A stretch of 64,000 nt of DNA from Amycolatopsis alkalitolerans (GTDB lineage Bacteria; Actinomycetota; Actinomycetes; Mycobacteriales; Pseudonocardiaceae), in the NCBI RefSeq assembly GCF_006152065.1, contig NZ_VDFW01000006.1, positions 186,001 through 250,000 on the forward strand. The letters run 5' to 3'. This document shows positions 33,267-58,702 of this stretch, piece by piece. The notes beneath the pieces were generated by a model that saw only the letters and a list, made by a program, of their open reading frames with translations, ran no database searches and was not told the DNA's origin. Every line of letters starts with the position of its first letter. Position 1 is the first letter of the stretch. The position numbers and the translations under genes are program-made.

Positions 33267-34370
33267 GTGACGATCCCGCTGGGCAGGCCGAGCGTTGGCG
33301 AGCCGGAACTGGCCGCCGTGGCGGAGGTGTTCGCCTCGGGGTGGCTCGCGGGAGCCGGTCCTGCCTGCCGCCGGTTCGAGGAGCGTTTCGCGAAGCTGAC
33401 CGGGACGGCGCATGCCCTCGCGACGAGCAACTGCGGTTCCGCCCTGTTCCTCGGGTTGCGTGCGCTCGGCGTACGCCCCGGCGACGAGGTCGTCGTCGCG
33501 GACTACACCTTTCCCGCCACCGGGCACGCGGTACTGCAGGCCGGGGCCACCCCGGTGTTCGCCGATGTGCGGCCTGACTCGTTCTGCGCGGACCCGGCCG
33601 CGATCGAGGCCGCGATCAGCCCGCGCACCGTGGGCATCCTTGTCGTCGACCTCGCCGGCCAGCCGGGGGATTTCGACGAGTACCGCGCGATCGCGGACCG
33701 CCACGGGCTCTGGCTGTTCGAGGACGCCGCGTGCGCGGCCGGTGCGAGCTACCGCACGCGCCCGGCCGGGAGTTTGGCCGATCTCGCGGCGTTCTCCTTC
33801 CACGGCCGCAAGGGCATCACCGCCGGCGAGGGCGGGGCGCTCGTCTCGGACGACGCGGAGCTGATCGAGCGCGCGCGCAAACTGCACACCTACGGCGTGC
33901 GGCCCGCTTACGGCCGGCAAACGGTGCCCGTCTTCGACGAGCTGGGTTACAACTTCCGCCTCTCCGACGTGCAGGCCGCGATCCTGACCGTGCAACTGGA
34001 CCGCCTCCCCGAAATCCTGGCCGCACGGCGGCTCGTCGCGAAGCGGTATGCCGAGGGGTTCGCGGGGCTGGCCGGTGTGCGGGTGCCCGAGGAACTGCCG
34101 GACCGAGTGCACCCGTGGCAGTCGTACCTGCTGCTGCTCGCGCCTGGGATCGATCGTGACCGGGCCATGGACAGCCTGCGCGCACGCGGTGTGCAGTGCA
34201 CGATCGGCACCTACGCCTCGCACCTGCAGCCGGTTTACGGCGGGTGCGCGCCCTGCCCGGTGTCCGCGGACGCGTTCCGCCGGCACCTCGCGATCCCGAT
34301 GCACGCCGAGCTCACCGGGGAACAGGTGGACCGCGTGATCGAAGCCGTCCGAGGAGAGGTGCATGACTGA
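33267..34370 (+). CDS. DegT/DnrJ/EryC1 aminotransferase (sugar aminotransferase), copy 1
   Basis: A 367-residue PLP enzyme. The Schiff-base Lys is Lys182 in FSFHGRKGITAGEGG, and the PLP-holding Asp lies in LWLFEDAACAAGAS. It forms an amino sugar from a keto nucleotide sugar using glutamate as donor. GTG 33267. First gene of a co-directional set (aminotransferase, epimerase, GT4, acetyltransferase) whose starts overlap or nearly abut. With the epimerase it may build a nucleotide-linked amino sugar. The exact position aminated is not readable. Confidence 0.88.
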   Translation: MTIPLGRPSVGEPELAAVAEVFASGWLAGAGPACRRFEERFAKLTGTAHALATSNCGSALFLGLRALGVRPGDEVVVADYTFPATGHAVLQAGATPVFADVRPDSFCADPAAIEAAISPRTVGILVVDLAGQPGDFDEYRAIADRHGLWLFEDAACAAGASYRTRPAGSLADLAAFSFHGRKGITAGEGGALVSDDAELIERARKLHTYGVRPAYGRQTVPVFDELGYNFRLSDVQAAILTVQLDRLPEILAARRLVAKRYAEGFAGLAGVRVPEELPDRVHPWQSYLLLLAPGIDRDRAMDSLRARGVQCTIGTYASHLQPVYGGCAPCPVSADAFRRHLAIPMHAELTGEQVDRVIEAVRGEVHD

Positions 34371-35292
34371 GCACAAGGTGTTCTTCACCGGTGGCGCGGG
34401 ATTCATCGCCGCGCACACGATCCCGCTGCTGCTCGAACGCGGCTACGCGGTGCGGATCTTCGACAACATGACCCGCGGCGACCGGGAGCGCGTCGGCGAG
34501 TTCGTCGCGACCGGCCGGGTCGAGCTCGTCGAGGGGGACGTGCGCTACGGCGGCGCGGTGCGCGAGGCGATCCGCGGCTGCACGCACGTGATCCACTTCG
34601 CGACCGTGTCGATCAACAAGTCGATCGCGGATCCGCACGAGTCGATCGACATCAACATGACGGGCAACCACAACGTGTTCGCCGCCGCGGCCGCGGAAGG
34701 CGTGCGGCGCCTGGTGTTCGCGTCCTCGGCGTCGGTGTACGGCGAGCCGGAGAAGCTGCCGATGCACGAGGACGACCCGCTGCGCCCGCTGACCCCGTAC
34801 TGCATCAGCAAGCGCGCGGGCGAGGATCTGCTCGGCTTCTACGAGCGGCGGCACGGGCTTTCGTGGCTCGCCCTGCGGTTCTTCAACGTCTACGGTCCCG
34901 GCCAGAAGATCGAGGCGTACTACACCTCGGTCATCAACCACTTCATCCAGCGGCTGCGCGCGGGCAGGCCACCGGTGATCGACGGCCGCGGCGAGCAGTC
35001 GATGGACTTCGTGCACGTCACCGATCTCGCGAAGGCTGTGGTGCTGGCCCTGGCATCCTCGCGCGCGAACCTGCCGGTCAACATCGGCACCGGGATCGAC
35101 ACGTCGATCGCGACGCTCGCGAAGATCCTCATCGAAGCGGTCGGCGCGGACGTCGAGCCCGAGTTCAACCCGCGCGAAGTGCTGGTGTCGCGCCGTGCCG
35201 CGGACGTCGCCCGCGCGCGCGAGGTGCTCGGCTGGGAGCCGAGCATTCCCGTCGAGCAGGGGATGCGCGAACTCGTCGAGTCCTACCGCTGA
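34363..35292 (+). CDS. NAD-dependent epimerase/dehydratase (nucleotide sugar SDR)
   Basis: A 309-residue extended SDR. NAD-binding TGGAGFIAAH at the N-terminus, then SSASVYGE and the catalytic YCISK (Tyr-x-x-x-Lys), with the FFNVYGPGQ segment typical of nucleotide-sugar epimerases or dehydratases. ATG 34363 overlaps the aminotransferase by 8 bases. It probably converts the UDP- or dTDP-sugar upstream or downstream of the aminotransferase. Epimerase versus dehydratase cannot be told apart here. Confidence 0.88.
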   Translation: MTEHKVFFTGGAGFIAAHTIPLLLERGYAVRIFDNMTRGDRERVGEFVATGRVELVEGDVRYGGAVREAIRGCTHVIHFATVSINKSIADPHESIDINMTGNHNVFAAAAAEGVRRLVFASSASVYGEPEKLPMHEDDPLRPLTPYCISKRAGEDLLGFYERRHGLSWLALRFFNVYGPGQKIEAYYTSVINHFIQRLRAGRPPVIDGRGEQSMDFVHVTDLAKAVVLALASSRANLPVNIGTGIDTSIATLAKILIEAVGADVEPEFNPREVLVSRRAADVARAREVLGWEPSIPVEQGMRELVESYR

Positions 35293-35293
35293 A

Positions 35294-36496
35294 ATGCGGA
35301 TCGTCGTCGTCAACAACTTCTTCCCGCCGCGAGTCGGCGGGAGCGCTCATATGGCCGCGGCGCTCGCGGGGAAGTACGCCGAGGCCGGGCACGACGTGCT
35401 CGTGCTGACCGCCGCCTACGGCCAGGCGCCGGCGGAGGAGGAGCGCGACGGCTACCGGATCATCCGGTTGCCCGCGGTGCGGATGCCGATACTGGGCCTG
35501 TCGATCGACTTCGACCTCAGCTTCGCCGCGATGGTGCCGGGCAACCGGCGGCGGATCCGACGGCTGCTGCACGAGTTCCAGCCGGATGCGCTGCATCTGC
35601 ACGGACAGTTCTTCGACCTGTCCTGGCTCGCGGGCTGTTACGGGCGGCGGCTCGGTGTACCGTCCATAGTGACCATCCACACGCTACTGGTCAGCGAAAA
35701 TCCCTGGTACGGCGCGATCTTCCGGGCGCTCGACGCGGTACTGGTGAAGCCGATGCTGCGGCGGATCGGCCCGCTGCACATCCTGCTCGACAAGCTGGGC
35801 GCGGACTACTGCGCCCGCCGCTACGGGACGACCGCGGCGAACTCGGTGCATCTGCCGATCCCGATCGACACCGGGTTCTTCGACCGTGCCGATGTCCGGA
35901 CGGGGGAACGGGAAGGCGCGTCGATCCTGTCTCTCGGCCACGTTATCCCGCTGCGGAACCGGTTGCCGCTCGTCGAGGCGTTGCCGTCGATCCTGGCGAA
36001 ACACCCTGGCACCACCGTGACGGTCGTCGGGCGGGTGTACCACGACGAGTTCCTGCGCCGGGCCGAGGAACTCGGCGTCCGGGATGCGATCGTCGTGCGG
36101 GGCGCGGTGCCGCGCGAGGAGGTTCCGTCGTATTTCGCCGCGGCGGACGTCGTCGCGCACGACCTCAACGGCGGATGCGGTACGGCTTCGCTCGAAGCGA
36201 TGCTGTCCGGTACGGCGACCATCGCCTCGGTCGCGCCCGACAACTATCCGGGCGTGGAACTGCGCAATGGCGAGAACATCCTGCTTGTCCCACCGGACGA
36301 CCCTGGCGCGGTCGCGGAAGCCGTCATCGGGCTGCTCGACGACCCGCGGTGGCGGGCCGACCTGGCCCGCCGCGCGAGCGCGCTGGTGCGCGAGCATTTC
36401 GCGCTCGACGTGGTGGCCAAGCATCATCTGCGACTACTGGAGGCACTGTGTTCTTCGACGACGAGCGCAGCAACCGGCTCCGGCCGGAGATCCTGA
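35294..36496 (+). CDS. Group 1 glycosyltransferase (GT4 family)
   Basis: A 400-residue GT-B enzyme. The N-terminal domain opens MRIVVVNNFFPPRVGGSAHM, and the nucleotide-sugar domain has SLGHVIPLRN, VVGRV and the GCGTASLEAMLSGT loop corresponding to the Glu-x7-Glu region. ATG 35294 starts one base after the epimerase stop. It likely transfers the sugar made by this cluster to a lipid or polymer on the cytosolic face. It overlaps the acetyltransferase start by 49 bases. Confidence 0.85.
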   Translation: MRIVVVNNFFPPRVGGSAHMAAALAGKYAEAGHDVLVLTAAYGQAPAEEERDGYRIIRLPAVRMPILGLSIDFDLSFAAMVPGNRRRIRRLLHEFQPDALHLHGQFFDLSWLAGCYGRRLGVPSIVTIHTLLVSENPWYGAIFRALDAVLVKPMLRRIGPLHILLDKLGADYCARRYGTTAANSVHLPIPIDTGFFDRADVRTGEREGASILSLGHVIPLRNRLPLVEALPSILAKHPGTTVTVVGRVYHDEFLRRAEELGVRDAIVVRGAVPREEVPSYFAAADVVAHDLNGGCGTASLEAMLSGTATIASVAPDNYPGVELRNGENILLVPPDDPGAVAEAVIGLLDDPRWRADLARRASALVREHFALDVVAKHHLRLLEALCSSTTSAATGSGRRS

Positions 36497-37008
36497 CCCA
36501 GCTGGTCGGCCAGTACCTCAACGACGCCGAGCGCGCGCGGTACCTCGGCCTGCCGGACACGACGCGGATCCGCGAGCGCGCGAAGATCATCAACCCGGAG
36601 CGGCTGATCCTCGGGGAGCACTGCTGGATCGGCGAGGACGCGGTGCTCGACGCGAGCGGCGGCCTGACGATCGGCGAGCACACGAGCGTCGGCGTGGGCA
36701 CGCTCGTGTTCACGCATTCGAGCTGGCTGGCGAACATGATGCTGGAGAACCACTCCGGCAGCGATCTCATCGAGCGGACCCCGGTCGTGATCGGCAAGGG
36801 TTGCTTCCTCGGCGGGCACGCGGTCATCATGCCGGGCGTCACGATCGGGGATTTCGCCACCGTGCAGCCGAATTCGGTGGTGGCGAAGGACGTGCCGGAC
36901 CGCTGCCTCGTCGCGGGCAATCCGGCGCGTGTGTTCCAGCGCTACGACGAGGACTACGTGGAGTCCGAGGCCGAGCGGGTCCGCGCCAAGAACGCCCGCT
37001 TGCCGTGA
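36448..37008 (+). CDS. Left-handed beta-helix acetyltransferase (WbbJ/maltose O-acetyltransferase type)
   Basis: A 186-residue hexapeptide-repeat acyltransferase. Repeats such as IGEDAVLDASGGLTIGEHTSVGVGT and VIGKGCFLGGHAVIMPGVTIGDFATVQPNSVV are visible, followed by the NPARVFQRYDE cap. It acetylates an OH or NH2 of the sugar using acetyl-CoA. GTG 36448 with GGAGG at 36439-36443 is chosen; it overlaps the GT4 gene by 49 bases. It ends in the palindrome at 37006-37020. Confidence 0.85.
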   Translation: MFFDDERSNRLRPEILTQLVGQYLNDAERARYLGLPDTTRIRERAKIINPERLILGEHCWIGEDAVLDASGGLTIGEHTSVGVGTLVFTHSSWLANMMLENHSGSDLIERTPVVIGKGCFLGGHAVIMPGVTIGDFATVQPNSVVAKDVPDRCLVAGNPARVFQRYDEDYVESEAERVRAKNARLP

Positions 37009-37050
37009 GGGGGCCCCTCACGGTCGTATAGGGCATGAGGGGGTCCCTCA
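37006..37050. repeat. Two tandem short palindromes between convergent genes
   Basis: TGAGGGGGCCCCTCA (37006-37020, overlapping the stop of the acetyltransferase) and TGAGGGGGTCCCTCA (37036-37050), 30 bases apart. Each can fold as a 6-7 base-pair hairpin with a 1-3 base loop. They lie between convergent genes and could act as a bidirectional terminator or be a small repeat element. No T-run follows. Confidence 0.65.
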
Positions 37051-37064
37051 CGGCATCACGAGCA

Positions 37065-37958
37065 TCACGAGGGGTGGGGGTTGGTTGCCTGAGCGATGAC
37101 CTGGTGCGCGGGCAGGATCGAGGCGCGTTCGGCGTCCGCATCCACCTGACCGGCCGCCAGCGCAAGGAAATACTCGAGCTGCGCGGCCAACGGCTCGGGC
37201 CCCGTCGGCTCATGCACCTCCACCGCTGACCCGCGGGTCACGACGATCGACCGTGCCACCAGGTCCACTTCGATCACCCGGTCCAGTTCGGACATCGTGA
37301 TCGTGCGCGTTTTCCGTTGCCCGAGGCGGGAAGCCGACAGGGTGGCGACTCCGGTGGGGAACGACAGCGTCGCGTCCACCGTGTCCTCCGCAGCCGGCGC
37401 CGAAGCGGGATGGAAGTAGCCCGCGGCGGAGGTGACCCGGACCGGCGAGCACCCGAAGCACCGGATCGCGAGGTCCACGTCGTGCACCAGCAGATCCCAC
37501 GCCACGCCGGTGCGGATCCGCGGCGCATAGGGGCCGTGCCGGTGGGCGATCAGGTGCACCGGTTCCGTCACCAGGCTCATCGCCGTCACGACGGCCGGGT
37601 TGAACCGCTCGACGAACCCGCACATCACCGGCACGCCGAGGTTCTCCGACAGCCGGACGATCTCCTCGGCCGCGCCCAGTTCGTCCGCCACCGGTTTCTC
37701 GACGAGCAAAGGCTTGCCCTGCTTGAGGATCTCCAGTGCGAGCTCGTGATGGGATTCGGTCGCGGAGGCGAGCACCACGGCGTCCACATCGGACAGGGTG
37801 TCCAGCGAAGGCGCCCAGGCGGCACCGAATTCCGCGGCACAAGCCCGCCCCGCGTCGGCTCGCGGCTCGATGACCCGAACCAGCGAAGCCCTCGAGCCGG
37901 CTATCGTCCTCGCGTGCAACCGGCCCATGCATCCGGTGCCCACCAAGGCCAGTCTCAT
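37065..37958 (-). CDS. Gfo/Idh/MocA-family dehydrogenase (GnnA/WbpB-like candidate)
   Basis: A 297-residue NAD(P)-dependent sugar dehydrogenase. The Rossmann start is LALVGTGCMG; the catalytic-region EKP motif is in LLVEKPVADE, and a His-Asp pair appears in LLVHDVDLAIRCFG. It overlaps the aminotransferase gene upstream by 4 bases. The pair, next to an LpxA-like acyltransferase across a 41-base divergent gap, looks like the GnnA/GnnB or WbpB/WbpE pairs that oxidise C3 of UDP-GlcNAc and aminate it. The substrate identity is inference. Confidence 0.82.
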   Translation of the reverse strand: MRLALVGTGCMGRLHARTIAGSRASLVRVIEPRADAGRACAAEFGAAWAPSLDTLSDVDAVVLASATESHHELALEILKQGKPLLVEKPVADELGAAEEIVRLSENLGVPVMCGFVERFNPAVVTAMSLVTEPVHLIAHRHGPYAPRIRTGVAWDLLVHDVDLAIRCFGCSPVRVTSAAGYFHPASAPAAEDTVDATLSFPTGVATLSASRLGQRKTRTITMSELDRVIEVDLVARSIVVTRGSAVEVHEPTGPEPLAAQLEYFLALAAGQVDADAERASILPAHQVIAQATNPHPS

Positions 37959-39061
37959 GCGCCCAGCGCCTCTCTGACTTCTCGCACGACGGTGTCCACA
38001 TCGGACTCGGTGAGAGCCGGGTGCACCGGCAGCGACAGCGCTTCCTGAGTCAGCCGGTGCGCCACCGGGAACTGCTCGGGCGACACCGCCGGGATCTGCG
38101 GATGGCCCCGGAAGCAGTCGTGATCGAACACCAGGCTCGGGTAGTACACGCCGGTGCCGATCCCCCGGCCGGTCAGCTCGGCGGCGAGTTCGTCGCGCGA
38201 GAGCATCGCGTGCGGGCCGATCAGCACCGTGTACTGGTGCCAGACATGCGAACGCCCCGGCAGCACGGCCGGCACCGCGAGCCCAGGCGTTCCGGCGAGC
38301 CCGGTCGAGAGCTGCTTGGCGTTGTGGCGCCGGGCGGCGACCAACTCGTCGAGCCGTGCCAGCTGGGGAATGCCGACGGCGGCGTGCAGCTCCGACATCC
38401 GGTAGTTGTGCCCGGCCAGCTCGTACCGGTACCGCGCGCGCATGCCCTGATTGCGCAGCACACGCAGCCGGTCGGCCAGTTCGTCGTCGTCGCAGGTGAC
38501 GACGCCGCCTTCGCCGGTCGTGACGTTCTTCGTGGCGTACAACGAAAAGCAGCCCAAGCCGTAGGAGCCGGCCGCCTGGCCCTCGAACGCCGAGCCCACC
38601 GACTGCGCCGCGTCCTCGACCAGGTGCAGACCGTGTTCGGCGGCCAGCGGAGCGAGCTTGCCCATGTCCGCCACCTGCCCGTACAGGTGCACGGGCAGCA
38701 GCACCTTCGTGCGCGGCCCGATCACCCGTGCCACCGCGTCCGGGTCGAGCGCGAAGTCCTCGCGTGACACGTCGGCGAACCGGACCGTCGCACCCGCTTC
38801 GAGGATCGCGTTCAGCGTGGCCACGAACGTGAACGGGGACGTGATCACCTCGTCACCCGGGCGCAGCCCGAGCGCCTGCAACGCCGCGACGAGCGCCGTC
38901 GTCCCGCTGTTCACCGCCACCGCGTGCGCCGTGCCCGCGACGCGGGCGAAGGCGTCCTCGAACCGGCCGACCATCGGCCCCTGGGCGAGCCCGCCCGAGC
39001 GCAGGACCTCGATCACGAGCGGCTCGGCGTCACGGACGTCGACCACGGTAAGGGGAATCAT
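37955..39061 (-). CDS. DegT/DnrJ/EryC1 aminotransferase, copy 2 (GnnB/WbpE-like candidate)
   Basis: A 368-residue PLP aminotransferase. Lys178 lies in YATKNVTTGEGG, the PLP-binding Asp in LHLVEDAAQSVGS, and the HNYRMSELHAA segment fits the family. It is only distantly similar to copy 1 at 33267-34370, so the two act on different sugars or steps. Coupled to the dehydrogenase downstream by a 4-base overlap. Divergent from the LpxA-like gene, 41 bases away, so both strands are likely driven from one small promoter region. Confidence 0.88.
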   Translation of the reverse strand: MIPLTVVDVRDAEPLVIEVLRSGGLAQGPMVGRFEDAFARVAGTAHAVAVNSGTTALVAALQALGLRPGDEVITSPFTFVATLNAILEAGATVRFADVSREDFALDPDAVARVIGPRTKVLLPVHLYGQVADMGKLAPLAAEHGLHLVEDAAQSVGSAFEGQAAGSYGLGCFSLYATKNVTTGEGGVVTCDDDELADRLRVLRNQGMRARYRYELAGHNYRMSELHAAVGIPQLARLDELVAARRHNAKQLSTGLAGTPGLAVPAVLPGRSHVWHQYTVLIGPHAMLSRDELAAELTGRGIGTGVYYPSLVFDHDCFRGHPQIPAVSPEQFPVAHRLTQEALSLPVHPALTESDVDTVVREVREALGA

Positions 39062-39102
39062 GCGGCGATACCTCCTTCGGCCGGTGGGTAGGGTTGCGCC
39101 CC

Positions 39103-39801
39103 GTGAATCGCATCCACCCGACCGCGGTGCTGGGGCCGGGTGTCGCGCTCGGGACCGGGAACGTCATCGGGCCGTACACCGTCATCACCGGTCCCGCCGT
39201 GCTCGGCGACGGCAACTGGATCGGCCCGCACGTCACGATCGGCACCCCGGCCGAGGACCGTGACGGCCCGCATCCGGGCTGGGACGACGAGCCCGCGGGC
39301 GCGGGCGTGCGCATCGGGCACCGCAACCGGATCCGCGAGTACGCCAGCGTGCATCAGGGCACGCGGCGCCCGACCGTGCTCGGTGACGACGGTTACTACC
39401 TGCGAGGCGCTCATGTCGCACATGACTGCCTCATCGGGGACGCGGTGACCTTGGCCTCCAATGTCGTGCTGGGCGGGCATGTGCACGTCTGGTCGCGAGC
39501 CAACCTCGGGATGGGCACGATGGTCCACCAGCACGTACGGATCGGCCCTGGCGCCATGGTTGGCATGGGCGCGGCCGTCCGGCGCGAGGTCGGTGCGTTC
39601 ACGATCTGCGTCGGCAACCCCGCCAGGGTCACCGGCCTCAACGTGGTCGGGCTCGCCCGGCTGGGCCTCGACCAGGACACGATTGATCAGCTCGAACCGT
39701 GGCTCAAGGGCAAAGCGCGACTTCCACCCGATGGGTTGACGAACACGCTGCCCACCGGGCTCTCTACCTTGGTGCGAGCCTGGGACGAGCGGAAGGACTG
39801 A
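39103..39801 (+). CDS. LpxA-like left-handed beta-helix acyltransferase
   Basis: A 232-residue hexapeptide protein that resembles UDP-GlcNAc acyltransferase (LpxA). It has the catalytic-type segment RIGHRNRIREYASVHQGT (LpxA: NRIRExVTIHRGT), HVAHDCLIGDAV, MVHQHVRIGPGAMVGMGAAV and the ending LNVVGLARLGL (LpxA: NxVGLKRRGF). GTG 39103. LpxA normally acts in lipid A synthesis of Gram-negative bacteria, which an actinomycete should not have. Here it is followed by an ACP and ligase, so it likely moves an ACP-bound acyl group to an amino sugar. Confidence 0.8.
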   Translation: MNRIHPTAVLGPGVALGTGNVIGPYTVITGPAVLGDGNWIGPHVTIGTPAEDRDGPHPGWDDEPAGAGVRIGHRNRIREYASVHQGTRRPTVLGDDGYYLRGAHVAHDCLIGDAVTLASNVVLGGHVHVWSRANLGMGTMVHQHVRIGPGAMVGMGAAVRREVGAFTICVGNPARVTGLNVVGLARLGLDQDTIDQLEPWLKGKARLPPDGLTNTLPTGLSTLVRAWDERKD

Positions 39802-39805
39802 AAAC

Positions 39806-40039
39806 GTGGAGATCGGACAGCGCCTGCGGGCCGTGTTCGTGTCGGCACTGGACCTCGACGAGGACGCTGACGTCGAGAAACTCGAGTATCGCGGGATCGA
39901 GGCGTGGGACTCGGTCGGGCATATTACGCTCGTCGCCGCGATCGAGGACGAGTTCGAGGTGCAACTCGACACCGACCAGGTGCTCGACCTGTCGAGCTAC
40001 AAGGCGGCGTTGGACCTGGTGACGCAGTTGCTCGCGTGA
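39806..40039 (+). CDS. Acyl carrier protein
   Basis: A 77-residue acidic four-helix protein with the phosphopantetheine Ser36 in AWDSVGHITLV. It is distinct from housekeeping ACPs in having Ser-Val-Gly-His rather than Ser-Leu-Asp. GTG 39806 lies 4 bases after the previous stop. It is the likely carrier for the acyl group made by the downstream ligase and used by the LpxA-like enzyme or reduced by the LuxC-like protein. Confidence 0.88.
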   Translation: MEIGQRLRAVFVSALDLDEDADVEKLEYRGIEAWDSVGHITLVAAIEDEFEVQLDTDQVLDLSSYKAALDLVTQLLA

Positions 40040-40051
40040 GGAGGCGGTCCT

Positions 40052-41449
40052 GTGACGCTCATCGGTGACGGCGCACGACTCGTCGACACGGTTTCCGGTC
40101 GCGCGCTCGGGCACGCCGCGCTCAGGCGCGAGGTCGCCCGGATCGCGGAAGCGCTTTCCACGCTGCCCGAAGGCGTGCTGTTCACCCGGGTTTCGATCGG
40201 GATGCCCGATCTGCTGCGGTATCTGGCGGCCTTCGAGAGCGGTCGCGCGGTCGCGCTCATCGACCCCGCGTTGAATGCGGACTCGCTGGCCTCCCTGATC
40301 GCCCGGTTCCGGCCCGGAGCGGTGCTCTCCGCGCCCTGCGCCGAACCGCCGCCCGGGTACCGCGCCGAGGACGGGCACTGGCTGCGTGCCGACCCCGAAG
40401 GCGTGGCGCCGCATCCGGAGCTCGCGATCCTGCTGGCCACCAGCGGCTCCACCGGCGCGCCGCAGTTCGCCCGGCTCTCCCGGCGCGCGATCCTGTCCAA
40501 CGCGCGCGCGATCGCGGAGGTCCTCGGTATAGGGCCGGACGACGTGGCGCCGACGAGCCTGCCGCCGCACTACAGCTTCGGGCTGTCGGTGCTGAACTCT
40601 CATCTCGCGCAGGGCGCGACCGTGGTGATCGAACCGTCGGGGATCCTCGGCCGTCCGTTCTGGGACTCGGTGTCCAGTGCCGGCTGCACGTCGCTGGCGG
40701 CGGTCCCGTATCACTACGAGATGTTGCGGCGCCTGGACTTCGACCCGGCGCGCTACCCGCGGTTGCGCAAGCTCACCCAGGCGGGCGGGCGGCTGCGGCC
40801 CGAACTGGTCGACGAATTCGACACCAAGATGCGGGCGGCCGGTGGCGGGCTGTACGTGATGTACGGCCAGACCGAGGCGTCGCCGCGGATGGCGACGATG
40901 CCCGCGGAACTGCTGGCGCACAAGCCCGCGTCGGTCGGGCCCGCGGTGCCGGGCGGGCAGTTCAGCATCCGCCACGGTGACGGCTCGGAGACGACGCACC
41001 CGAAGATCACCGGCGAGGTGGTCTACCGGGGTCCCAACGTGATGATGGGCTACGCCGAGGACGCGGCGGCGCTCGCGCTCGGCGACGAACTCGGCGGCCT
41101 GCTGCCGACCGGTGACCTGGGCTACCTCGACGAGGACGGGTTCCTGTTCGTCACCGGCAGGCTCAAGCGCATCGGCAAGGTGTTCGGTAACCGGGTCGGC
41201 CTCGACGATCTCGAGCACGCGGCGCGCGCGACCGGGCTCGGCATCGAGATCGTCGCCGCGATCGCCGCCGACGACAAGGTCGTGCTGTTCGCGGAGGGTG
41301 TCGCGAAGGACGTGTGCAAGCAGGCTTCGCGCGCGCTCGGCGAACGCCTGCACCTGCACGCCTCGGGTTTCGACGTCCGCCCGATCGACGTGGTCCCGTT
41401 GCTGGCCAGCGGGAAGATCGACTACCAGGCGCTGGCGGAGCTGATATGA
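40052..41449 (+). CDS. Adenylate-forming acyl-ACP/CoA ligase
   Basis: A 465-residue enzyme of the ANL superfamily. The ATP motif is LLATSGSTGAPQFA, later VMYGQTEASPRM (A5 region), GDLGYLDEDGFLFVTGR (A7-A8) and a C-terminal Lys in SGKIDYQAL. It is shorter than typical CoA ligases (500-600). It activates a carboxylic acid as adenylate and loads it, probably onto the neighbouring ACP. The acid is unknown. Stop overlaps the LuxE-like start as ATGA, showing coupling. Confidence 0.88.
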   Translation: MTLIGDGARLVDTVSGRALGHAALRREVARIAEALSTLPEGVLFTRVSIGMPDLLRYLAAFESGRAVALIDPALNADSLASLIARFRPGAVLSAPCAEPPPGYRAEDGHWLRADPEGVAPHPELAILLATSGSTGAPQFARLSRRAILSNARAIAEVLGIGPDDVAPTSLPPHYSFGLSVLNSHLAQGATVVIEPSGILGRPFWDSVSSAGCTSLAAVPYHYEMLRRLDFDPARYPRLRKLTQAGGRLRPELVDEFDTKMRAAGGGLYVMYGQTEASPRMATMPAELLAHKPASVGPAVPGGQFSIRHGDGSETTHPKITGEVVYRGPNVMMGYAEDAAALALGDELGGLLPTGDLGYLDEDGFLFVTGRLKRIGKVFGNRVGLDDLEHAARATGLGIEIVAAIAADDKVVLFAEGVAKDVCKQASRALGERLHLHASGFDVRPIDVVPLLASGKIDYQALAELI

Positions 41450-42435
41450 GCCTGGTGGCCCGGCTTTACGACTTGACCGCGTATCACCGGTCGCGGTGCG
41501 GCGAGTACGACCGGATCCTCTCGGCGCTCGGCACCGGCGATGCGTTCGCCGAGGTGGCGGACCTGCCATGGCTTCCGGTGCGCCTGTTCAAGACGCACGC
41601 GCTCAAGAGCATTCCGGACGAGGACGTGTTCCGGGTGCTGACTTCTTCGGGCACGACCGGCGCGCCGTCGAGGATCTTTCTCGACAAGGCCGCCGCGGCG
41701 GCGCAGACGCGGCACCTGTCGTCGACCCTGCAGCGCGTGCTCGGCCCATCCCGGCTGCCGATGCTCGTGGTGGACCGCAGGAGCATCGTGCGCTCGCGGT
41801 CCGCGCGGGGCGCCGGAGTGCTCGGGATGGCGAACTTCGGCCGCAAGCATGTGTACCTGCTCGACGAGGACGAGCGGCCGGATGTGCCCGCCCTTCGGCG
41901 GTTCCTGGCCGAGCACGGCGGCGAGCCGTTCCTGATCTTCGGGTTCACGTTCCTGGTCTGGCAATACCTGTACGAGGTGGCGCGCGAACACCGGCTCGAC
42001 CTGTCGAACGGGATCCTGATCCACTCGGGCGGCTGGAAGAAGCTCATCGAGCGGGCCGTCGACAACGCCGAGTTCCGGCGGCGCTTCGCCGAGGACACAG
42101 GCCTGCGGCGGATCCACAACTACTACGGGATGGTCGAGCAGATCGGCACCGTCTTCCTCGAAGGACCCTCCGGCGACGGCTTGTACTGCCCGGAGTTCGC
42201 CGACGTCGTGATCCGCGATCCGCGCACCTGGGCGGAACAGCCGATCGGCGTGCCGGGCGTGGTGGAGGTGGTGAGCACGCTGCCGCGGTCGTATCCCGGG
42301 CATGTGCTGCTGACCGAGGATCTCGGGGTGTGTCACGGGATCGACGACGGGGACTGGCCGGGGAAGCGGTTTTCGGTGCTCGGGCGCCTGCCCCGTGCCG
42401 AAGTCCGCGGCTGTTCCGATACCGTCGCGGGGTGA
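41446..42435 (+). CDS. LuxE-like acyl-protein synthetase
   Basis: A 329-residue protein of the LuxE/PaaK-like family. The ATP-binding motif is VLTSSGTTGAPSRI, then FLIFGFTFLVWQYLYEVAR, GGWKKLIERAV and HNYYGMVEQIGTVF, all typical of LuxE. In bioluminescent bacteria LuxE activates fatty acid and passes it to LuxC. Here it precedes a LuxC-like gene with an overlap (GTGA) and follows the AMP ligase with an overlap. No luciferase genes are adjacent. Likely acyl activation for aldehyde formation or transfer in this cluster. Confidence 0.82.
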   Translation: MSLVARLYDLTAYHRSRCGEYDRILSALGTGDAFAEVADLPWLPVRLFKTHALKSIPDEDVFRVLTSSGTTGAPSRIFLDKAAAAAQTRHLSSTLQRVLGPSRLPMLVVDRRSIVRSRSARGAGVLGMANFGRKHVYLLDEDERPDVPALRRFLAEHGGEPFLIFGFTFLVWQYLYEVAREHRLDLSNGILIHSGGWKKLIERAVDNAEFRRRFAEDTGLRRIHNYYGMVEQIGTVFLEGPSGDGLYCPEFADVVIRDPRTWAEQPIGVPGVVEVVSTLPRSYPGHVLLTEDLGVCHGIDDGDWPGKRFSVLGRLPRAEVRGCSDTVAG

Positions 42436-43544
42436 CGTTTCCGAGCCTCGATGGGCCGTTGCTGGCAGTCGGTGACGAGCGGGTCGTCGATTTCCTGGAC
42501 CGGTTCGGGCGGCGCCTGCTCGCGCTTGGGCGGCGGTATCCGGAACTCGCCTCGCTGGGTTTCTTCCTCCGGCGCGCCGAGACCGGGCGGCAGCTGTCCC
42601 GTTTGGACGGTTTGCGGTACCCGCGCGGCGTGGTGTTCCACGTGCCGCCGGCCAATGTGGACACCGTGTTCGTGTACTCGTGGGCGCTGTCGGCGCTCGC
42701 CGGGAACACCAACGTCGTGCGGATCTCGCCACGGGCGGGCGCGGCCGCGCGGGCGATCCTGGACGTCTGGCGTTCGATGGACGATCCGGTCATCGCGCGC
42801 ACCCAGCACATGATCAGCTACGACCGCGACGACGAGTTGACCGCGAAGCTGTCGGCGGCCGCCGATCTGCGTGTGCTGTGGGGTGGCGACGATTCGGTGC
42901 GCGCCCTGCGGAAGTTCCCGCTCGCGCCGCATGCGCGTGACCTGACGTTTCCCGACCGCTCGTCGTTCGCGATCGTGTCCGTCGCGGGCTGGCAGCGGGC
43001 GTCCGAAGCGCGCCGGCGGAAGGCCGTCGAGGCGTTCTTCACCGACGCGTACTGGTTCGATCAGGCGGCCTGTTCCTCGCCACGCGGCGTGTTCTGGGTG
43101 GGCGAGGACGACGTGTCCGCCGTGTTCCGCGAACTGCTGGTGGCGGTCGCCGAGGAGAAAGGGCACCTCACCGAGCCCGCCATGGCCGTGCAGAAGCGTG
43201 TCGCCACCTATGGCGCCGCGGCGGACGGTCTCGTCGAGAAGATCTCCTTCGACAGTCACGCGGTGACGAGTCTCGAGTCGGAAGACCTGCTCCGAGAATG
43301 GCTCGGCGCCGGAGTTTTCACTCATTCGAAGGTTTCCTCCCTCGCCGAACTCGTACCGAAAGTCGTCCGCAAGGATCAGACGGTCACCCATTTCGGGTTC
43401 GAGCGTGCGGAACTTGTCGAGTTCGCCAGGAAAACGGGGGTGGACCGGGTCGTGCCGTTCGGCTCGGCGCTCGAGTTCTCCCCGGTCTGGGACGGCTACG
43501 ATCTGCTCGCCGAATTCACGAAACTGATCACCGTCACCGGTTGA
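42432..43544 (+). CDS. LuxC-like acyl reductase
   Basis: A 370-residue protein of the LuxC acyl-CoA/acyl-protein reductase family. The candidate catalytic Cys is Cys214 in WFDQAACSSPRGV, and the N-terminal FHVPPANVDTVFVYSWALSALAGNTNVVRIS segment matches LuxC's aldehyde-dehydrogenase-like fold. It would reduce an acyl thioester to an aldehyde with NADPH. GTG 42432 overlaps the LuxE-like stop. Physically coupled with ACP, ligase and LuxE. Product unknown. Confidence 0.85.
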   Translation: MTFPSLDGPLLAVGDERVVDFLDRFGRRLLALGRRYPELASLGFFLRRAETGRQLSRLDGLRYPRGVVFHVPPANVDTVFVYSWALSALAGNTNVVRISPRAGAAARAILDVWRSMDDPVIARTQHMISYDRDDELTAKLSAAADLRVLWGGDDSVRALRKFPLAPHARDLTFPDRSSFAIVSVAGWQRASEARRRKAVEAFFTDAYWFDQAACSSPRGVFWVGEDDVSAVFRELLVAVAEEKGHLTEPAMAVQKRVATYGAAADGLVEKISFDSHAVTSLESEDLLREWLGAGVFTHSKVSSLAELVPKVVRKDQTVTHFGFERAELVEFARKTGVDRVVPFGSALEFSPVWDGYDLLAEFTKLITVTG

Positions 43545-43549
43545 GGACC

Positions 43550-44443
43550 ATGAAGACCAGGATTCTCGATGTCGCACGCTGGGCCGCGCTCGTGCTGGTC
43601 ATCGGTTTCGCGGTGCGCGAACTCGCCGCGAACTGGACCGAGTTCTGGCGCACCCTTCGCGGAATCGCATGGGAGTCCTCGGGGTTGAGCCTGCTCGCGC
43701 TCGTCGCGAGCATCGCGGTGTCCACCTACGGCTGGCAGGTCGTGGTCAACGGCCTCGGCGCCCCGGTCGGCTACCGGCGCGGCGCGCGGATCTGTCTCGT
43801 GGGGCAACTCGGGAAGTACGTGCCTGGCTCGGTGTGGGCGTACCTCCTGCAGATGGAGTTGGGCCGCAAGGCTGGCCTCTCGCGGGCACGCGTGTTCACC
43901 GGGTCGCTGGTGCAGTTCGGCATCGGGCTCGTCGCCGCACTGCCACTGGCGGTCCTGGCCGGGCCGCGCACGTGGCTGCTGGCGACGATCCCGGCCGCCG
44001 CCGTACTGCATCCGAAGGTGCTGTCGTGGGGCGCTTCGAGGGTGCTCAAACTGGCGCGGCGCCCGCCGATGGAACGGGAGCTCACCGGCCGCCGGACCGT
44101 GACGGCGTTCGGGGCGGCGCTGGTCGCGTGGTGCCTGCAAGGCGTGCACCTCTGGCTGCTCGCCGGCTCGGACCTGCTCACCTGCGTCGGCGCGATGGCG
44201 CTCGCGATGACCGCGGGCACCTTCGCCTTCCTGCTGCCCAGCGGCGCCGGGGTGCGCGAGGCGGTGCTCGTCGCGGTGCTGACCGCCGCCGGGATCCCCG
44301 CCGGTCAGGCGCTCGCGTACGCGCTGACCTCGCGGGTCATGTTCACCGTCGCGGACCTGCTCACCGCCCTGGCAGCAGCTGGTACACCGTGGCGTCCGCG
44401 TTCCGGTAGGCCACTCGCAGGAATGGCAGCCCGTCCAGGTTGA
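43550..44443 (+). CDS. Multi-span membrane protein, lysylphosphatidylglycerol-synthase TM (UPF0104/flippase) type
   Basis: A 297-residue polytopic protein with about eight hydrophobic segments. The sequence GARICLVGQLGKYVPGSVWAYLLQMELGRKAG and FLLPSGAGVREAVLVAVLTAAG is typical of the LPG-synthase transmembrane/UPF0104 family, whose members include putative lipid or glycolipid transporters. ATG 43550 lies 5 bases after the LuxC-like stop, so it is the last gene of the LpxA-ACP-ligase-LuxE-LuxC unit. Its 3' end overlaps the convergent membrane protein by 83 bases. It may move the finished glycolipid across the membrane. Confidence 0.8.
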   Translation: MKTRILDVARWAALVLVIGFAVRELAANWTEFWRTLRGIAWESSGLSLLALVASIAVSTYGWQVVVNGLGAPVGYRRGARICLVGQLGKYVPGSVWAYLLQMELGRKAGLSRARVFTGSLVQFGIGLVAALPLAVLAGPRTWLLATIPAAAVLHPKVLSWGASRVLKLARRPPMERELTGRRTVTAFGAALVAWCLQGVHLWLLAGSDLLTCVGAMALAMTAGTFAFLLPSGAGVREAVLVAVLTAAGIPAGQALAYALTSRVMFTVADLLTALAAAGTPWRPRSGRPLAGMAARPG

Positions 44444-46250
44444 GCAGGCCCGGCGGATGCGGTCCGGTGGGGAACCCGCCGCGGCCGAGGATCACCCACC
44501 GTATGTTCAGCCGCGCCACCGTCGCCCGCACCTGCGGGTTCGTGTCGTAGTCGCGGAAGTGCGCGGCCAGCAACGTGTACTCCGGCGTGGGCAGCGCGCG
44601 ATCGAAATGCGCCGCCACGGTACGCACCCCGGTCAGCGCGTACGTCCACACCGAACCGTCGGCGCGGTCGTTCATCGCCCACTGCCCGGGTTTCGCGAGG
44701 CGCCCGAGTTCGAGCATCGCCTGCTCCTCGTCGTGGCTGACCGGGAGGTCGTCCTCGGCGATGCCGTCGTGCGGGCCGTATCCCGGTTGGATGATCGCCG
44801 CGTTCGCCGTCGTGTAGAGCTGGTTGCTCACCACGAAGAACCCGGCCAGCACGACGACCGCTGTCGCGGGCGCGAACCACCGCATCGTGAACCGGTCGCG
44901 CACCACGCGCTGCACCTCCGCGAGCCCGTGCGCGGCCAGGACGCACAGCGGGATCGCGGCCATCGCGACCATCCGGGTCGGGTCGTTCCACCACGGCCGG
45001 GAAAGCGCTTTCACCAGCGGGTTTCCCGAGGACAGCACGGCCACCGCGAACAGGCCCAGCAGTACCGCGGACGCGGTGATCCAGCGCAGTTCGCCGAGCC
45101 CGCGCCAGGCGATCAGCCCGATCAGGAGTGCTGCGGAAAGCCACAGTTGCGCGTGCGGCTCGGTGCGCTGGAACGCGAGCAGGATGCCGACGGCCTTGTT
45201 CGTCGTGGTCTCGGTCGGCCAGCCGTTGTAGGGGAGGCTCCCCGAGGCGAGCCCGATCGCGCCGGACAGTTGCAGCCACGCCGCGACGAGACTCACCGCC
45301 GCGATCGGCAGCAGCCGCAGCAGGTTCCGGCCGATCGCGCGGTTGGCCAGCAGCGGCAGGGCGAACAGCAACCCGGCGAAGAGGGTCGACGAGTGGATCG
45401 TCAGCAGCCCGATCATGCTCGCGGCGAGCAGGAAGCCCGTGTCGAGGCCCGGCCGCCGGAGGTACTCGCGCAACGCGACGGTGCCGAGGGGGGTGAGCGC
45501 GAGGCCCAGCACGAACGGCAGCAGCGGTCCGCCCAGCGAGTCATACAGCAGGGTCGCCGCCGCGACGCAGACCAGCGCGACTGCGCCCGCGAGCACCGCG
45601 CGCCCGTGAAACCGGCGCACCAGCACGACCAGGGACAACGCCAGCAGGCCCGGTAGCAGGAGGGTGTTCGCGTTGAGCACGACCGGGATCGGCGCGCCGG
45701 TCAGCCGCTCGACGAGCGAGGCGACGAGGTGATAGGCGTTCGGGTAGAAAAGGCCGTGCGGGTACCAGTTCAGGGTCCCCATTCCGGTGAGGCTGCCGTC
45801 ACCTGTTTCAGCGATATACCGGATTCCGTCGGCGTGATAAACCGCGTCGAATCCCTGGGGAATCGCGGACAGTTCACCCATTCCGCGGAGAAGCGTGCGT
45901 GCCCCGATCGTGGCGGCGAACAGTGTGGACACCGCGACGGCCGTATGCCCGCGCCAGTCCCAGTGGTGTTCGCCGGGCGCCGGACGCCGGACGGCGAACG
46001 CGATCCCGGCGAAAACGAGCGTCGCCACCAGGAAACTCGGCAGGTTGAAGGGCACTCCGATGGTGGCGAACCAGGGCCCGGCGAGGCCCGCGACGCAATA
46101 GGTGAGCAGGGGCGCCATCCCCGCCAGCAGCCAGCCGCGGGCGCCCGCGAGCGCGGCGATCACCGCACCCGGTCCGAAGATCACCAGCAGATACGCCGCG
46201 ATGGTCAGCAAATTCCCGCCCCGAAAACAAAGAAACCGAATCGCGCGCAC
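44361..46250 (-). CDS. Large polytopic membrane protein (DUF6541/GT-C-like)
   Basis: About 629 residues with 12-14 membrane segments and a C-terminal extracytoplasmic domain. The loop after the early helices contains an acidic patch (FDAVYHADGIRYIAETGDGSLTG), and Tyr-Pro-His (NWYPHGLFYP) follows; these fit GT-C-type polyprenyl-sugar transferases and DUF6541 proteins. GTG 46250 is used but the start is uncertain (longer reading upstream lacks signals). It converges on the flippase-like gene and is divergent from the PlsC-like gene. It may add the sugar of this cluster to the wall or a lipid. Confidence 0.7.
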   Translation of the reverse strand: MRAIRFLCFRGGNLLTIAAYLLVIFGPGAVIAALAGARGWLLAGMAPLLTYCVAGLAGPWFATIGVPFNLPSFLVATLVFAGIAFAVRRPAPGEHHWDWRGHTAVAVSTLFAATIGARTLLRGMGELSAIPQGFDAVYHADGIRYIAETGDGSLTGMGTLNWYPHGLFYPNAYHLVASLVERLTGAPIPVVLNANTLLLPGLLALSLVVLVRRFHGRAVLAGAVALVCVAAATLLYDSLGGPLLPFVLGLALTPLGTVALREYLRRPGLDTGFLLAASMIGLLTIHSSTLFAGLLFALPLLANRAIGRNLLRLLPIAAVSLVAAWLQLSGAIGLASGSLPYNGWPTETTTNKAVGILLAFQRTEPHAQLWLSAALLIGLIAWRGLGELRWITASAVLLGLFAVAVLSSGNPLVKALSRPWWNDPTRMVAMAAIPLCVLAAHGLAEVQRVVRDRFTMRWFAPATAVVVLAGFFVVSNQLYTTANAAIIQPGYGPHDGIAEDDLPVSHDEEQAMLELGRLAKPGQWAMNDRADGSVWTYALTGVRTVAAHFDRALPTPEYTLLAAHFRDYDTNPQVRATVARLNIRWVILGRGGFPTGPHPPGLLNLDGLPFLRVAYRNADATVYQLLPGR

Positions 46251-47934: not shown

Positions 47935-48837
47935 GTGCGCGTTGGCATTGTGATTCTCCCCGAGGACCGGTGGTGGGCCGCCGAGCCCAAGTGGCGGGCG
48001 GCCGAGGAATACGGCTTCGACCACGCCTGGACCTACGACCACCTGGGCTGGAGATCACTGGTCGACGGCCCGTGGTTCAGCGCCGTGCCCACCCTGACCG
48101 CCGCCGCCACCGTCACCTCCACCATCCGCCTCGGCACCTTCGTCGCCTCCCCGAACTTCCGGCATCCCGTCCCGTTCATGCGGGAGCTGATCACCGTCGA
48201 CGACATCGCCGACGGCCGCCTCATCCTCGGCATCGGCGCGGGTGGCCTGGGCTATGACACTCAGGTGCTCGGCGACCCGGACCTGTCCGCGCGGCAGCGG
48301 GCCGACCGGTTCGCCGAGTTCACCGAGGCGCTCGACGGCCTGTTCAGCACCGACAAGTTCGACTACAAGGGCGAGTACTACCGGGCCGTCGGCGTCCGCA
48401 ACCTGCCCGGCCCGGTCCAGCGGCCGCGGGTGCCGTTCCTGATCGCCGCGAACGGGCCGCGCGGGATGCGGCTCGCCGCCCGGTACGGCATGGGCTGGGT
48501 CACCACCGGCGCGCTGCCGGACGATCCCGAGCGCGGCGGCTCGCTCGAGAAGTGGTGGCAGCTGATCGGTGAGCTGTCCGCCCGCTTCGACGAGGTCCTC
48601 GGCGAAACCGGCCGGAACCGGGCGGACGTCCATCGCTACCTCAGCCTCGATGCGGCCCCGGTCTTCTCCCTGTCCAGCGTCGAGGCGTTCACCGACGCCG
48701 CGGGCCGGGCGGCGGAACTCGGCTTCACCGACATCGTCACGCACTGGCCACGCTCCAGCGGCCCCTACGCGGGGCGGGAAACGGTGCTCGAACACGTGGT
48801 GTCGGATGTGTTGCCCGGGTTAAGGGGTACCCCTTAA
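47935..48837 (+). CDS. LLM-class (luciferase-like) F420/flavin-dependent oxidoreductase
   Basis: A 300-residue TIM-barrel protein of the luciferase-like monooxygenase family, with MRVGIVILPEDRWWAAEPKW at the start, GFDHAWTYDHLGW, LGTFVASPNFRHPV, LILGIGAGG and LAARYGMGWVTTG typical of F420-binding actinobacterial members. Likely F420- or flavin-dependent oxidation; substrate unknown. It lies 4 kb from the LuxC/LuxE-like genes but is unlikely to be a luciferase (see rejected). Start GTG 47935. Its stop lies in the palindrome at 48818-48839. Confidence 0.82.
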   Translation: MRVGIVILPEDRWWAAEPKWRAAEEYGFDHAWTYDHLGWRSLVDGPWFSAVPTLTAAATVTSTIRLGTFVASPNFRHPVPFMRELITVDDIADGRLILGIGAGGLGYDTQVLGDPDLSARQRADRFAEFTEALDGLFSTDKFDYKGEYYRAVGVRNLPGPVQRPRVPFLIAANGPRGMRLAARYGMGWVTTGALPDDPERGGSLEKWWQLIGELSARFDEVLGETGRNRADVHRYLSLDAAPVFSLSSVEAFTDAAGRAAELGFTDIVTHWPRSSGPYAGRETVLEHVVSDVLPGLRGTP

Positions 48838-48853: not shown

Positions 48854-50624
<1,771 letters not shown>

Positions 50625-50634
50625 GGAAAGCTTC

Positions 50635-53537: not shown

Positions 53538-53547
53538 CAATGGCGGG

Positions 53548-54981: not shown

Positions 54982-55042
54982 CGCCGTTAGCCCCACGTAA
55001 AATCCTGCGGCAAGTGGTCGGGGAACACAGCAAAGGGGCGTC

Positions 55043-55783: not shown

Positions 55784-55807
55784 TCACCCGGGAACGTACA
55801 GTTCCGT

Positions 55808-57925: not shown

Positions 57926-57946
57926 CGGCCACCGGCTCGCCCGGAC

Positions 57947-58702
57947 TCAGATGGGCAGCTTCCGGAAGATCGGCCGCGGCACATGCCGCAGCACCGACAT
58001 CACGAGCCGGAACTGCGCTGGCGCCCACACGAGGTCCTTGCCCTTGCGCGCCGCGTCCACCGCGATGTCCGCGACCTGTTCGGCGGTCTGCTCGAGCGGC
58101 GCCTTGCCCATGCCCTCGGTCATCTTCGTCTTGACCTGGCCAGGCCGGACGACGGTGACGGTCACGCCATGCGGCGCGAGCGCTTCGCCGAGGCCGAGGT
58201 AGAACCCGTCGAACCCGGCCTTGGTCGAGCCGTACACGAAGTTCGAGCGGCGCACCCGCTCACCGGCGACCGAGGACAGCGCGATGACCCGGCCGTGGCC
58301 CTGCTTCTTCAGCTTGTCCGCGAGCGCCACCCCGACCGACACCGCCGCGGTGTAGTTCACCGTGGCGAGTTCGACGGCCTTCGCGTGGTCCTGCCACACT
58401 TCCTCGGCGTCGCCGAGCAGACCGAACGCGACGACGGTCACGTCGATGTCGCCGCCCTCGAAAGCCTTGTCCAGCACGGCGGGGTGCGAAGCCGTGTCGG
58501 TCGCGTCGAAGTCCACTTCGGACACTTCGGCACCGGCGGCGCGCAGTTTCTCGGCGGCGAGCTTGCGCCGCTCGCTCGCCCGCGCCGCGAGCACGACCCT
58601 GAGCGGGCGCTCGGCGAGGTACTTCCCGGCGATCGCGAGCGCGATGTCGGAGGTGCCGCCGAGCAGCAGCAGCGACTGGGGGTTTCCTACCGCGTCGATC
58701 AC
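57947..58702 (-). CDS. dprE2: Decaprenylphosphoryl-2-keto-ribose reductase
   Basis: A 251-residue short-chain reductase. NADPH site [35 protein letters not shown] with the catalytic Ser/Tyr-x-x-x-Lys (YGSTK). It reduces decaprenylphosphoryl-2-keto-erythropentose to decaprenylphosphoryl-arabinose (DPA), the arabinose donor. GTG 58702 overlaps the dprE1 stop, so the two are translated together, as the two-step epimerase works. Confidence 0.92.

Follow-up and report, generated by a model that had tools for sequence, protein, structure and literature searches.

We analysed a 64,000-nucleotide stretch of the Amycolatopsis alkalitolerans genome (assembly GCF_006152065.1, contig NZ_VDFW01000006.1, positions 186,001–250,000 of the forward strand), referred to below in its full length as the window, which carries a gene cluster that combines amino-sugar genes with a dedicated acyl carrier protein (ACP) and homologues of LuxE and LuxC. 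Gene identities were assigned by scanning the window proteins with Pfam and NCBIfam profiles, and scores below a cut-off were read as likeness only (Table 1). The genes for an LpxA-like acyltransferase, the ACP, an adenylate-forming (ANL) ligase, LuxE, LuxC and a flippase-like membrane protein form a plus-strand run (39103–44443) in which neighbours overlap or are separated by at most 12 bases. Divergent from the LpxA-like/ACP unit, on the minus strand, lie a DegT aminotransferase gene (AT2) and a Gfo/Idh dehydrogenase gene, which overlap by 4 bases. A plus-strand unit upstream (33267–37008) encodes another aminotransferase (AT1), an epimerase, a GT4 glycosyltransferase and a WcaF-like acetyltransferase. 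All of these genes had been listed in an initial annotation of this DNA, and each was recovered at the place and strand given there. The luxC gene most likely starts at the GTG at 42432, which overlaps the luxE stop, rather than at 42459.

Table 1. Features of the acyl and amino-sugar cluster in the window. L- and G-numbers, here and in the text, are labels of mapped loci and genomes.
Feature	Position	Strand	Profile match or remark
AT1, DegT/DnrJ-type sugar aminotransferase	33267..34370	+	PF01041 355.6 bits; PseC-like 254.5 vs cut-off 423.5
NDP-sugar epimerase/dehydratase	34363..35292	+	PF01370 180.1 bits; GalE/LegB-like, under cut-offs
GT4 glycosyltransferase	35294..36496	+	PF13692/PF13439
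WcaF-like hexapeptide acetyltransferase	~36448..37008, start uncertain	+	Hexapep; WcaF subfamily under cut-off (scanned as longer frame 36175-37008)
Gfo/Idh/MocA dehydrogenase, proposed nucleotide-sugar 3-dehydrogenase	37065..37958	-	UDP-GlcNAc 3-dehydrogenase 124.1 bits, cut-off 450
AT2, DegT aminotransferase, proposed 3-aminotransferase	37955..39061	-	PF01041 383.9 bits
LpxA-like left-handed beta-helix acyltransferase, proposed amino-sugar N-acyltransferase	39103..39801	+	TIGR01852 163.1 vs 231.05 bits
Dedicated acyl carrier protein, 77 aa	39806..40039	+	PF00550 21.8 bits, cut-off 20.8; W-D-S-V serine site
Position of the short-chain dehydrogenase/reductase (SDR) of relatives, empty in the window	40039..40052	.	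SDR absent here and in L023 and L024
ANL adenylate-forming ligase, AMP-binding, proposed acyl-ACP ligase	40052..41449	+	PF00501 126.5 bits
LuxE-family acyl-protein synthetase	41446..42435	+	PF04443 153.3 bits (longer frame); C323
LuxC-family acyl-thioester reductase	42432..43544	+	PF05893 95 bits (scanned from 42459); C214
Flippase-like LPG_synthase_TM membrane protein	43553..44443	+	PF03706 54.7 bits (longer frame); TIGR00374 under cut-off
DUF6541 multi-spanning membrane protein	44361..46211	-	PF20176 364.6 bits

Using the window proteins and one SDR, we mapped 35 loci and found that the ACP, SDR, ANL, LuxE and LuxC genes lie in this order, as one run on one strand, in 26 of them. L031 is ordered as well, except that a minus-strand gene sits between ACP and SDR (1 of 35); the SDR is absent from three loci, namely the window and its two closest relatives, L023 and L024; and the cassette is rearranged or diverged in five (L090, L091, L093, L096 and L098). 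This gene order is far from chance. The window itself keeps four of the five cassette genes in order and, with its SDR absent, departs from the ordered five-gene arrangement of the Aeromonas type. Ordered loci include Saccharothrix, Umezawaea, Lentzea, Micromonospora, Actinoplanes and Nonomuraea, a metagenome-assembled genome (MAG) of Catenulispora, an Aliivibrio MAG, Oricola and a Deinococcus plasmid, and the cassette ranges from Pseudonocardiales to Proteobacteria and Deinococcus. A close LuxC (E ≤ 1e-80) was present in 13 of 61 relatives' genomes (weak matches in G026, G028, G031 and G034 were not counted), and among named relatives the closest LuxC proteins belong to Amycolatopsis species, with A. 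thermalba and A. pithecellobii as carriers of the locus. LuxC matches were found at 1e-20 in 2 of 296 genomes of the class, the window's own included, and at 1e-40 in 40 of 394 genomes of the order of the Aliivibrio MAG.

The LpxA-like gene adjoins the ACP gene in 17 of the 35 loci, and AT2 and Gfo are both present in 16 of these 17 and in 21 loci overall. In L047 and L048, AT2, Gfo, the LpxA-like gene and the cassette form a single run. Among the 61 relatives, with kinship uncorrected, an LpxA-like protein (1e-20) was found in all 13 genomes with close LuxC and in 5 of the 48 others (Fisher p 1e-9; p 4e-8 when one match, which lies on another contig, is counted as absent). Gfo (1e-30) was found in 11 of the 13 and 5 of the 48 (p 7e-7), and the remaining two close-LuxC genomes, G038 and G053, hold a diverged Gfo in the locus. 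With the LpxA-like and Gfo proteins tracking close LuxC in this way, the proposal of the initial annotation that an amino sugar is acylated from a dedicated ACP remains the best reading.

The cassette of the window is linked to both amino-sugar and glycosyltransferase genes (AT1, the epimerase, GT4, Gfo and AT2), and AT1 accompanies the epimerase in several of the mapped loci. In the 394 genomes of the order of the Aliivibrio MAG, PseB scored over its cut-off in 37 of 40 LuxC genomes versus 109 of 354 others (p 1.5e-14). Its position was checked in 39 LuxC genomes: it lies within 30 kb in 23, farther away on the same contig in 2 and on another contig in 11, and 3 have none over the cut-off. 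In L034, from Actinoplanes, the locus includes PseB together with a PseC-like protein that narrowly misses its cut-off. Of 39 LuxC genomes, 10 encode FdtA, which belongs to a 3-amino dideoxy-sugar pathway; it lies a few kb from LuxC in G615 alone and on a different contig in most others. The hexapeptide neighbour is of the NeuD/PglD type in L039 (under cut-off) and L089 (over cut-off). In L043 (14024–15720, genome G027), AT2 and Gfo are kept, but the LpxA-like gene before the ACP is replaced by two others, for a PylC-like ATP-grasp protein and a HAD hydrolase; this pair is perhaps an alternative way to the amide.

C214 of LuxC is invariant in 11 of 11 sequences and C323 of LuxE in 17 of 17, including one diverged fusion; we take both to be catalytic cysteines. 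The window LuxE, this cysteine included, aligns to the LuxE of PDB 7xc6, the fatty-acid reductase of luminous bacteria, and the LuxC profile matches the reductase of the same structure, although LuxC is shorter (370 aa versus 477 in the solved chain) and LuxE falls below its curated equivalog cut-off (64.6 versus 550 bits). Beyond these shared homologues the window differs from luxCDE, in that LuxE and LuxC sit with an ACP and an ANL ligase in a glycan locus. Light production of the lux type was rejected, as no luxAB or luxD was found in the operon among the window proteins scanned. The LpxA-like protein matches LpxA in the PDB with a best E of 1.6e-33 and scores below the NCBIfam LpxA cut-offs (174.8 versus 226 and 163.1 versus 231.05 bits). 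It keeps the histidine and aspartate at E. coli positions 125 and 126, which are presumably catalytic, as do all 24 homologues aligned. At the position of E. coli G173, which we take to set acyl length as a ruler, 14 of 16 aligned cassette-linked proteins (of 17) have methionine, the window's among them, and 2 have leucine. The best solved relatives of the ANL ligase include oxalate–CoA ligases, and those of AT2 include perosamine synthetase, ArnB, WbpE and QdtB. The best NCBIfam match of Gfo is the UDP-GlcNAc 3-dehydrogenase model, though its cut-off is not passed.

Parts of this arrangement have precedents. In lipid A of the Acidithiobacillus type, the Gfo/Idh and DegT enzymes GnnA and GnnB produce a 3-amino nucleotide sugar, to whose amine a homologue of LpxA then adds a 3-hydroxy fatty acid from the general ACP. 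The window differs from that system in having a dedicated ACP with its own ligase and reductase, and in belonging to an actinobacterium. The tetronate genes of Vibrio cholerae O1 reportedly include iron alcohol dehydrogenase and LuxC parts, with malate as the starting compound (Morona et al. 1995); we take LuxE and LuxC to be one protein there and the alcohol dehydrogenase to be of the iron type. Three of three Vibrionaceae loci scanned (L093–L095) represent a diverged type that resembles these genes, with an iron alcohol dehydrogenase between the ANL ligase and a LuxE–LuxC fusion of 825–827 aa. In published accounts of O1, which cite Morona et al. 1995, tetronate is carried on the amines of perosamine and involves genes VC0248–VC0252 (PMC3441752, whose passages on these genes contain neither malate nor the wbe gene names), RfbL activates 2,4-dihydroxybutanoic acid with RfbK as the carrier (PMC12208996) and RfbN contains a LuxE domain (PMC4772473). 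As far as these accounts go, the O1 system (rfbK–rfbO/wbe) resembles the window in that a carrier protein, an ANL ligase and a LuxE-type enzyme serve the N-acylation of an amino sugar, the acyl group being a C4 dihydroxy acid and the acceptor perosamine; their passages on the tetronate genes name no LpxA-like enzyme or Gfo/AT2 pair. In the window, by contrast, LuxE and LuxC are separate, and no iron alcohol dehydrogenase was found among the cluster proteins scanned.

The gene pseH, which we take to encode an amino-sugar N-acetyltransferase, marks another setting of the cassette. Downstream of it, the group II polar-flagellin glycosylation island of Aeromonas is described as carrying orf1–orf3, luxE and luxC (PMC7874193), which are the same five functions, listed in an order that matches most relatives of the window. 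The product of this island is a pseudaminic-acid-linked flagellin glycan, and the description includes no LpxA-like protein; the window, in turn, lacks the counterpart of orf2, the SDR. According to the same paper, the flagellin sugar of Aeromonas piscicola AH-3 consists of a pseudaminic derivative of 376.14 Da together with an unassigned 102 Da unit, and a strain lacking fgi-1, a deletion that leaves the five genes untouched, keeps the 376 Da sugar (PMC7874193). Flagellin glycosylation islands of Enterobacteriaceae, as described in PMC4875605, hold the protein set of the cassette (Acp, FabG, CaiC, LuxE and LuxC) in a sugar-modification island, under the term fatty acid synthesis. Since the gene set has been published for Aeromonas and the corresponding proteins for Enterobacteriaceae, the cassette is not a new kind, and the view of the initial annotation that the gene set was possibly undescribed is not supported. 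A 3-N-(4-hydroxybutanoyl) amino sugar has also been reported for Idiomarina, going by a title cited in PMC7281560, and is placed in the O-polysaccharide of Idiomarina abyssalis 227T; a link of this sugar to a cassette was considered by way of FdtA and dropped.

On balance, we consider it probable that a small hydroxyacyl-ACP is produced by the locus and serves in the N-acylation of a 3-amino sugar that goes into a surface or cell-wall glycan. LuxE would adenylate one carboxyl of a small dicarboxylic acid, with malate or succinate the likeliest candidates, and hold it as a thioester, and LuxC would reduce the LuxE-held acyl group to the semialdehyde. An alcohol dehydrogenase would then reduce the aldehyde to a hydroxy acid, for example 2,4-dihydroxybutyrate or 4-hydroxybutyrate; this enzyme would be the cassette SDR in most relatives, an iron alcohol dehydrogenase in the Vibrio type and, in the window, an enzyme encoded outside the cluster. 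The ANL ligase would load the hydroxy acid onto the dedicated ACP, Gfo/Idh and AT2 would make the 3-amino nucleotide sugar, the LpxA-like enzyme would move the hydroxyacyl group to its amine, and a glycosyltransferase and the flippase-like protein would build and export the product. The presence of two acid-activating enzymes, LuxE and ANL, would fit an acid that needs two rounds of activation, the first for its reduction and the second for its loading. Candidate genes were seen for every step but the dehydrogenase.

The initial annotation had LuxC and LuxE reducing the finished acyl group on a branch. From the order of the genes, the accompanying dehydrogenase and the precedent of V. cholerae O1, we instead place the reduction before ACP loading, such that LuxC and LuxE would be the source of the acyl group and not a side branch. 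An upstream hydroxyacyl route is suggested by the alcohol dehydrogenase gene in the cassette, by the likeness to V. cholerae O1 and by the flagellin masses of Aeromonas AH-3: replacing one acetyl of the pseudaminic derivative by C4H6O3 (102.032) gives 376.148 by mass arithmetic, versus the 376.14 Da reported. Gene families, order, co-occurrence, conserved cysteines and selection are the observed part of this proposal, and we infer the substrates, the identities of the acyl group and sugar, and the destination.

Several observations weigh against the proposal. The 376 Da match also fits other C4H6O3 isomers. Both Gfo and AT2 score under every curated NCBIfam cut-off shown, so the assignment of the sugar is tentative, and many of the NCBIfam matches of the ANL ligase are long-chain fatty acid ligases, those shown all under cut-off. 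The AT2/Gfo pair is absent from the mapped stretch in 14 of 35 loci, some of the stretches being short, and L036, L037, L040 and L043 have AT2 and Gfo but no LpxA-like gene in the locus. L093–L095 also hold an SDR upstream of the ACP, 22–33% identical to cassette SDRs, so the iron alcohol dehydrogenase may not simply replace the cassette SDR; in L093 this upstream SDR adjoins a cytidylyltransferase gene, and it may belong to the sugar genes of these loci. The SDR that aldehyde reduction would require is absent from the window, L023 and L024, and no close homologue of the cassette SDR was seen among the 86 SDR-type matches listed in the window's genome. The initial annotation had also raised the prospect that these genes recur separately in related genomes, and this turned out to be partly so: the five-gene block mostly stays together, whereas 4 of the 48 relatives lacking close LuxC have an LpxA-like/AT2/Gfo unit with no cassette (L100–L103), and 18 of the 35 loci have no LpxA-like gene beside the ACP. 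Since each part occurs without the other, the locus is two separable modules, one for the sugar and its N-acyltransferase and one for acyl supply. A flippase-like gene is present in three of L100–L103 (none was found in L103), and L104, also without close LuxC, holds LpxA-like and flippase-like genes with AT2 and Gfo only distant. The LpxA-like units of L100–L104 perhaps use housekeeping acyl-ACP.

This separability bears on an explanation in which two pathways merely lie side by side: LpxA-like, Gfo, AT2 and flippase-like proteins would produce an N-acyl 3-amino sugar from housekeeping acyl-ACP, and the cassette would serve another acceptor, for example the AT1/epimerase product via the WcaF-like transferase. 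Besides the cassette-free units of L100–L103, this would suit L036 and L037, where a WcaF-like gene rather than an LpxA-like gene precedes the ACP, and L027, which holds AT1, the epimerase, the LpxA-like gene and the cassette with no AT2 or Gfo in the stretch. We nevertheless regard it as unlikely in view of the adjacency of the LpxA-like and ACP genes in 17 loci, 16 of them with AT2 and Gfo, the single run in L047 and L048, and the strong co-occurrence of LpxA-like and Gfo proteins with LuxC in the relatives. A rather unlikely reading, close to that of the initial annotation, is also that a fatty acyl group of medium or long chain comes from the ANL ligase and ACP and is N-transferred by the LpxA-like enzyme, with LuxE and LuxC reducing part of it to a fatty aldehyde that enters another product. 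LuxE and LuxC are known for acting on fatty acids, several ANL matches are to fatty acid ligases (under cut-off), the LpxA homology would fit, and methionine at the ruler position is compatible with about C10 under the ruler rule. That residue was rejected as proof of a short acyl group, since it is also found in 5 of 5 cassette-free LpxA-like proteins, which counts against our proposal, and does not discriminate between the two groups. The Aeromonas and Enterobacteriaceae papers, in the parts that bear on the set, both term it fatty acid synthesis, and the former suggests a liposugar (PMC7874193, PMC4875605). However, no ketosynthase or dehydratase was found among the window proteins scanned or the annotated genes of L089 and L090, whereas L091, the only other locus looked at, does carry FabZ, and the dehydrogenase partners, the O1 tetronate precedent and the oxalate–CoA ligases among the best solved relatives of the ANL ligase point to a small polar acid.

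The missing SDR allows a further explanation. In relatives, the gene between ACP and ANL bears SDR motifs (5 of 5 checked). An assembly error is disfavoured, as the same absence is seen in L023 and L024, and relocation elsewhere in the genome was rejected as well. Of 185 first-look candidates in the window's genome, 150 were scored; among the matches listed, full-length SDRs reach 44% identity (two short fragments reach 47% and 56%), and the four best-scoring (L050–L053) are 36–44% identical to four actinobacterial cassette SDRs, versus 77–92% among the cassette SDRs of three Amycolatopsis-genus genomes, making an orthologue unlikely. Pseudogene decay was ruled out by the absence of internal stops in the 11 genes tested and by low ratios of nonsynonymous to synonymous substitution rates among the window, L023 and L024: 0.11–0.17 for LuxE, 0.12–0.15 for LuxC, 0.24–0.28 for ANL, 0.22–0.25 for ACP and 0.18–0.26 for the LpxA-like gene. 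LuxE, LuxC, ANL and ACP are under purifying selection in this SDR-less trio. Their retention alongside a clean loss of the SDR in three genomes would fit a pathway in which the acyl group is the semialdehyde itself or an amine derived from it, giving a new glycan substituent. No extra gene marks such a step, however, and the reduction could be performed instead by any of the 86 SDR-type matches listed; we consider this outcome very unlikely. Under the hydroxyacyl proposal, another SDR of the window's genome could have taken over aldehyde reduction. Whichever applies, the loss of a reductase in one clade is a ready natural experiment, with A. pithecellobii as an SDR-less and A. acididurans as an SDR-bearing species.

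N-acyl tagging of an amino sugar with hydroxy acids has so far been described mainly from Gram-negative surface sugars. No paper on the cassette in actinobacteria, or on its pairing with an LpxA-like gene and a Gfo/AT2 pair, was found among the matches listed in a search of the open literature; judged by these matches, what appears to be new here is the predicted LpxA-like/3-amino-sugar pairing in actinobacterial cell-wall loci. The proposal offers a testable chemical interpretation of the genes that two papers called fatty acid synthesis, and it links the cassette to the O1 tetronate genes and to the 376 and 102 Da flagellin modification of Aeromonas. If it is correct, a substituent of bacterial surface sugars would become predictable from genes in several phyla, and bacteria of the Amycolatopsis type would turn out to have an acylated amino sugar, so far undescribed, encoded next to their arabinogalactan genes. 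In a wider and more tentative form, which we hold to be possible but doubtful, Pseudonocardiales would decorate a cell-wall glycan, perhaps arabinogalactan, with a 3-amino sugar bearing a small omega-hydroxyacyl amide (or, in the SDR-less clade, a semialdehyde-derived one) by means of the LpxA-like enzyme and a dedicated hydroxyacyl-ACP, and the same cassette would write the acyl group across phyla, so that genome sequences could reveal which N-acyl substituent many still unsolved glycans carry.

Outside the ordered cassettes, other gene combinations were seen. The Vibrionaceae loci L096 (8437–17655) and L098 contain LuxE, LuxC and ACP, and the scan of L096 adds a thiamine-diphosphate enzyme and NeuB; this gene content suggests that the LuxC aldehyde can feed carbon–carbon bond formation too. 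L091 (3223–14271), on a Rhizobium beringeri plasmid, carries two transketolase-annotated genes, ACP, an AMP-binding protein, LuxE-like and LuxC proteins, an SDR, a GMC oxidoreductase and FabZ.

Downstream of the cluster in the window, Pfam matches identify a PlsC acyltransferase, a HAD hydrolase, a luciferase-like protein, Glf, PAP2, UbiA, AftA, a pair of SDR and FAD-oxidoreductase, GtrA and GlfT2. We take the pair to be DprE2/DprE1-like and the gene run to resemble the mycobacterial arabinogalactan region. The arabinogalactan-type run from Glf to GlfT2 spans 48887–62601, and three proteins encoded within it (53548–54981, 55043–55783 and 55808–57925) have no Pfam match at 1e-5. The luciferase-like monooxygenase family protein (47950–48837) lies beside the HAD hydrolase and outside the operon, shows no sign of membership in a lux light system, and is present in 13 of the 35 mapped loci. 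The minus-strand DUF6541 gene overlaps the end of the flippase-like gene; its product, for which no solved structural relative was found by sequence, is possibly a glycosyltransferase acting outside.

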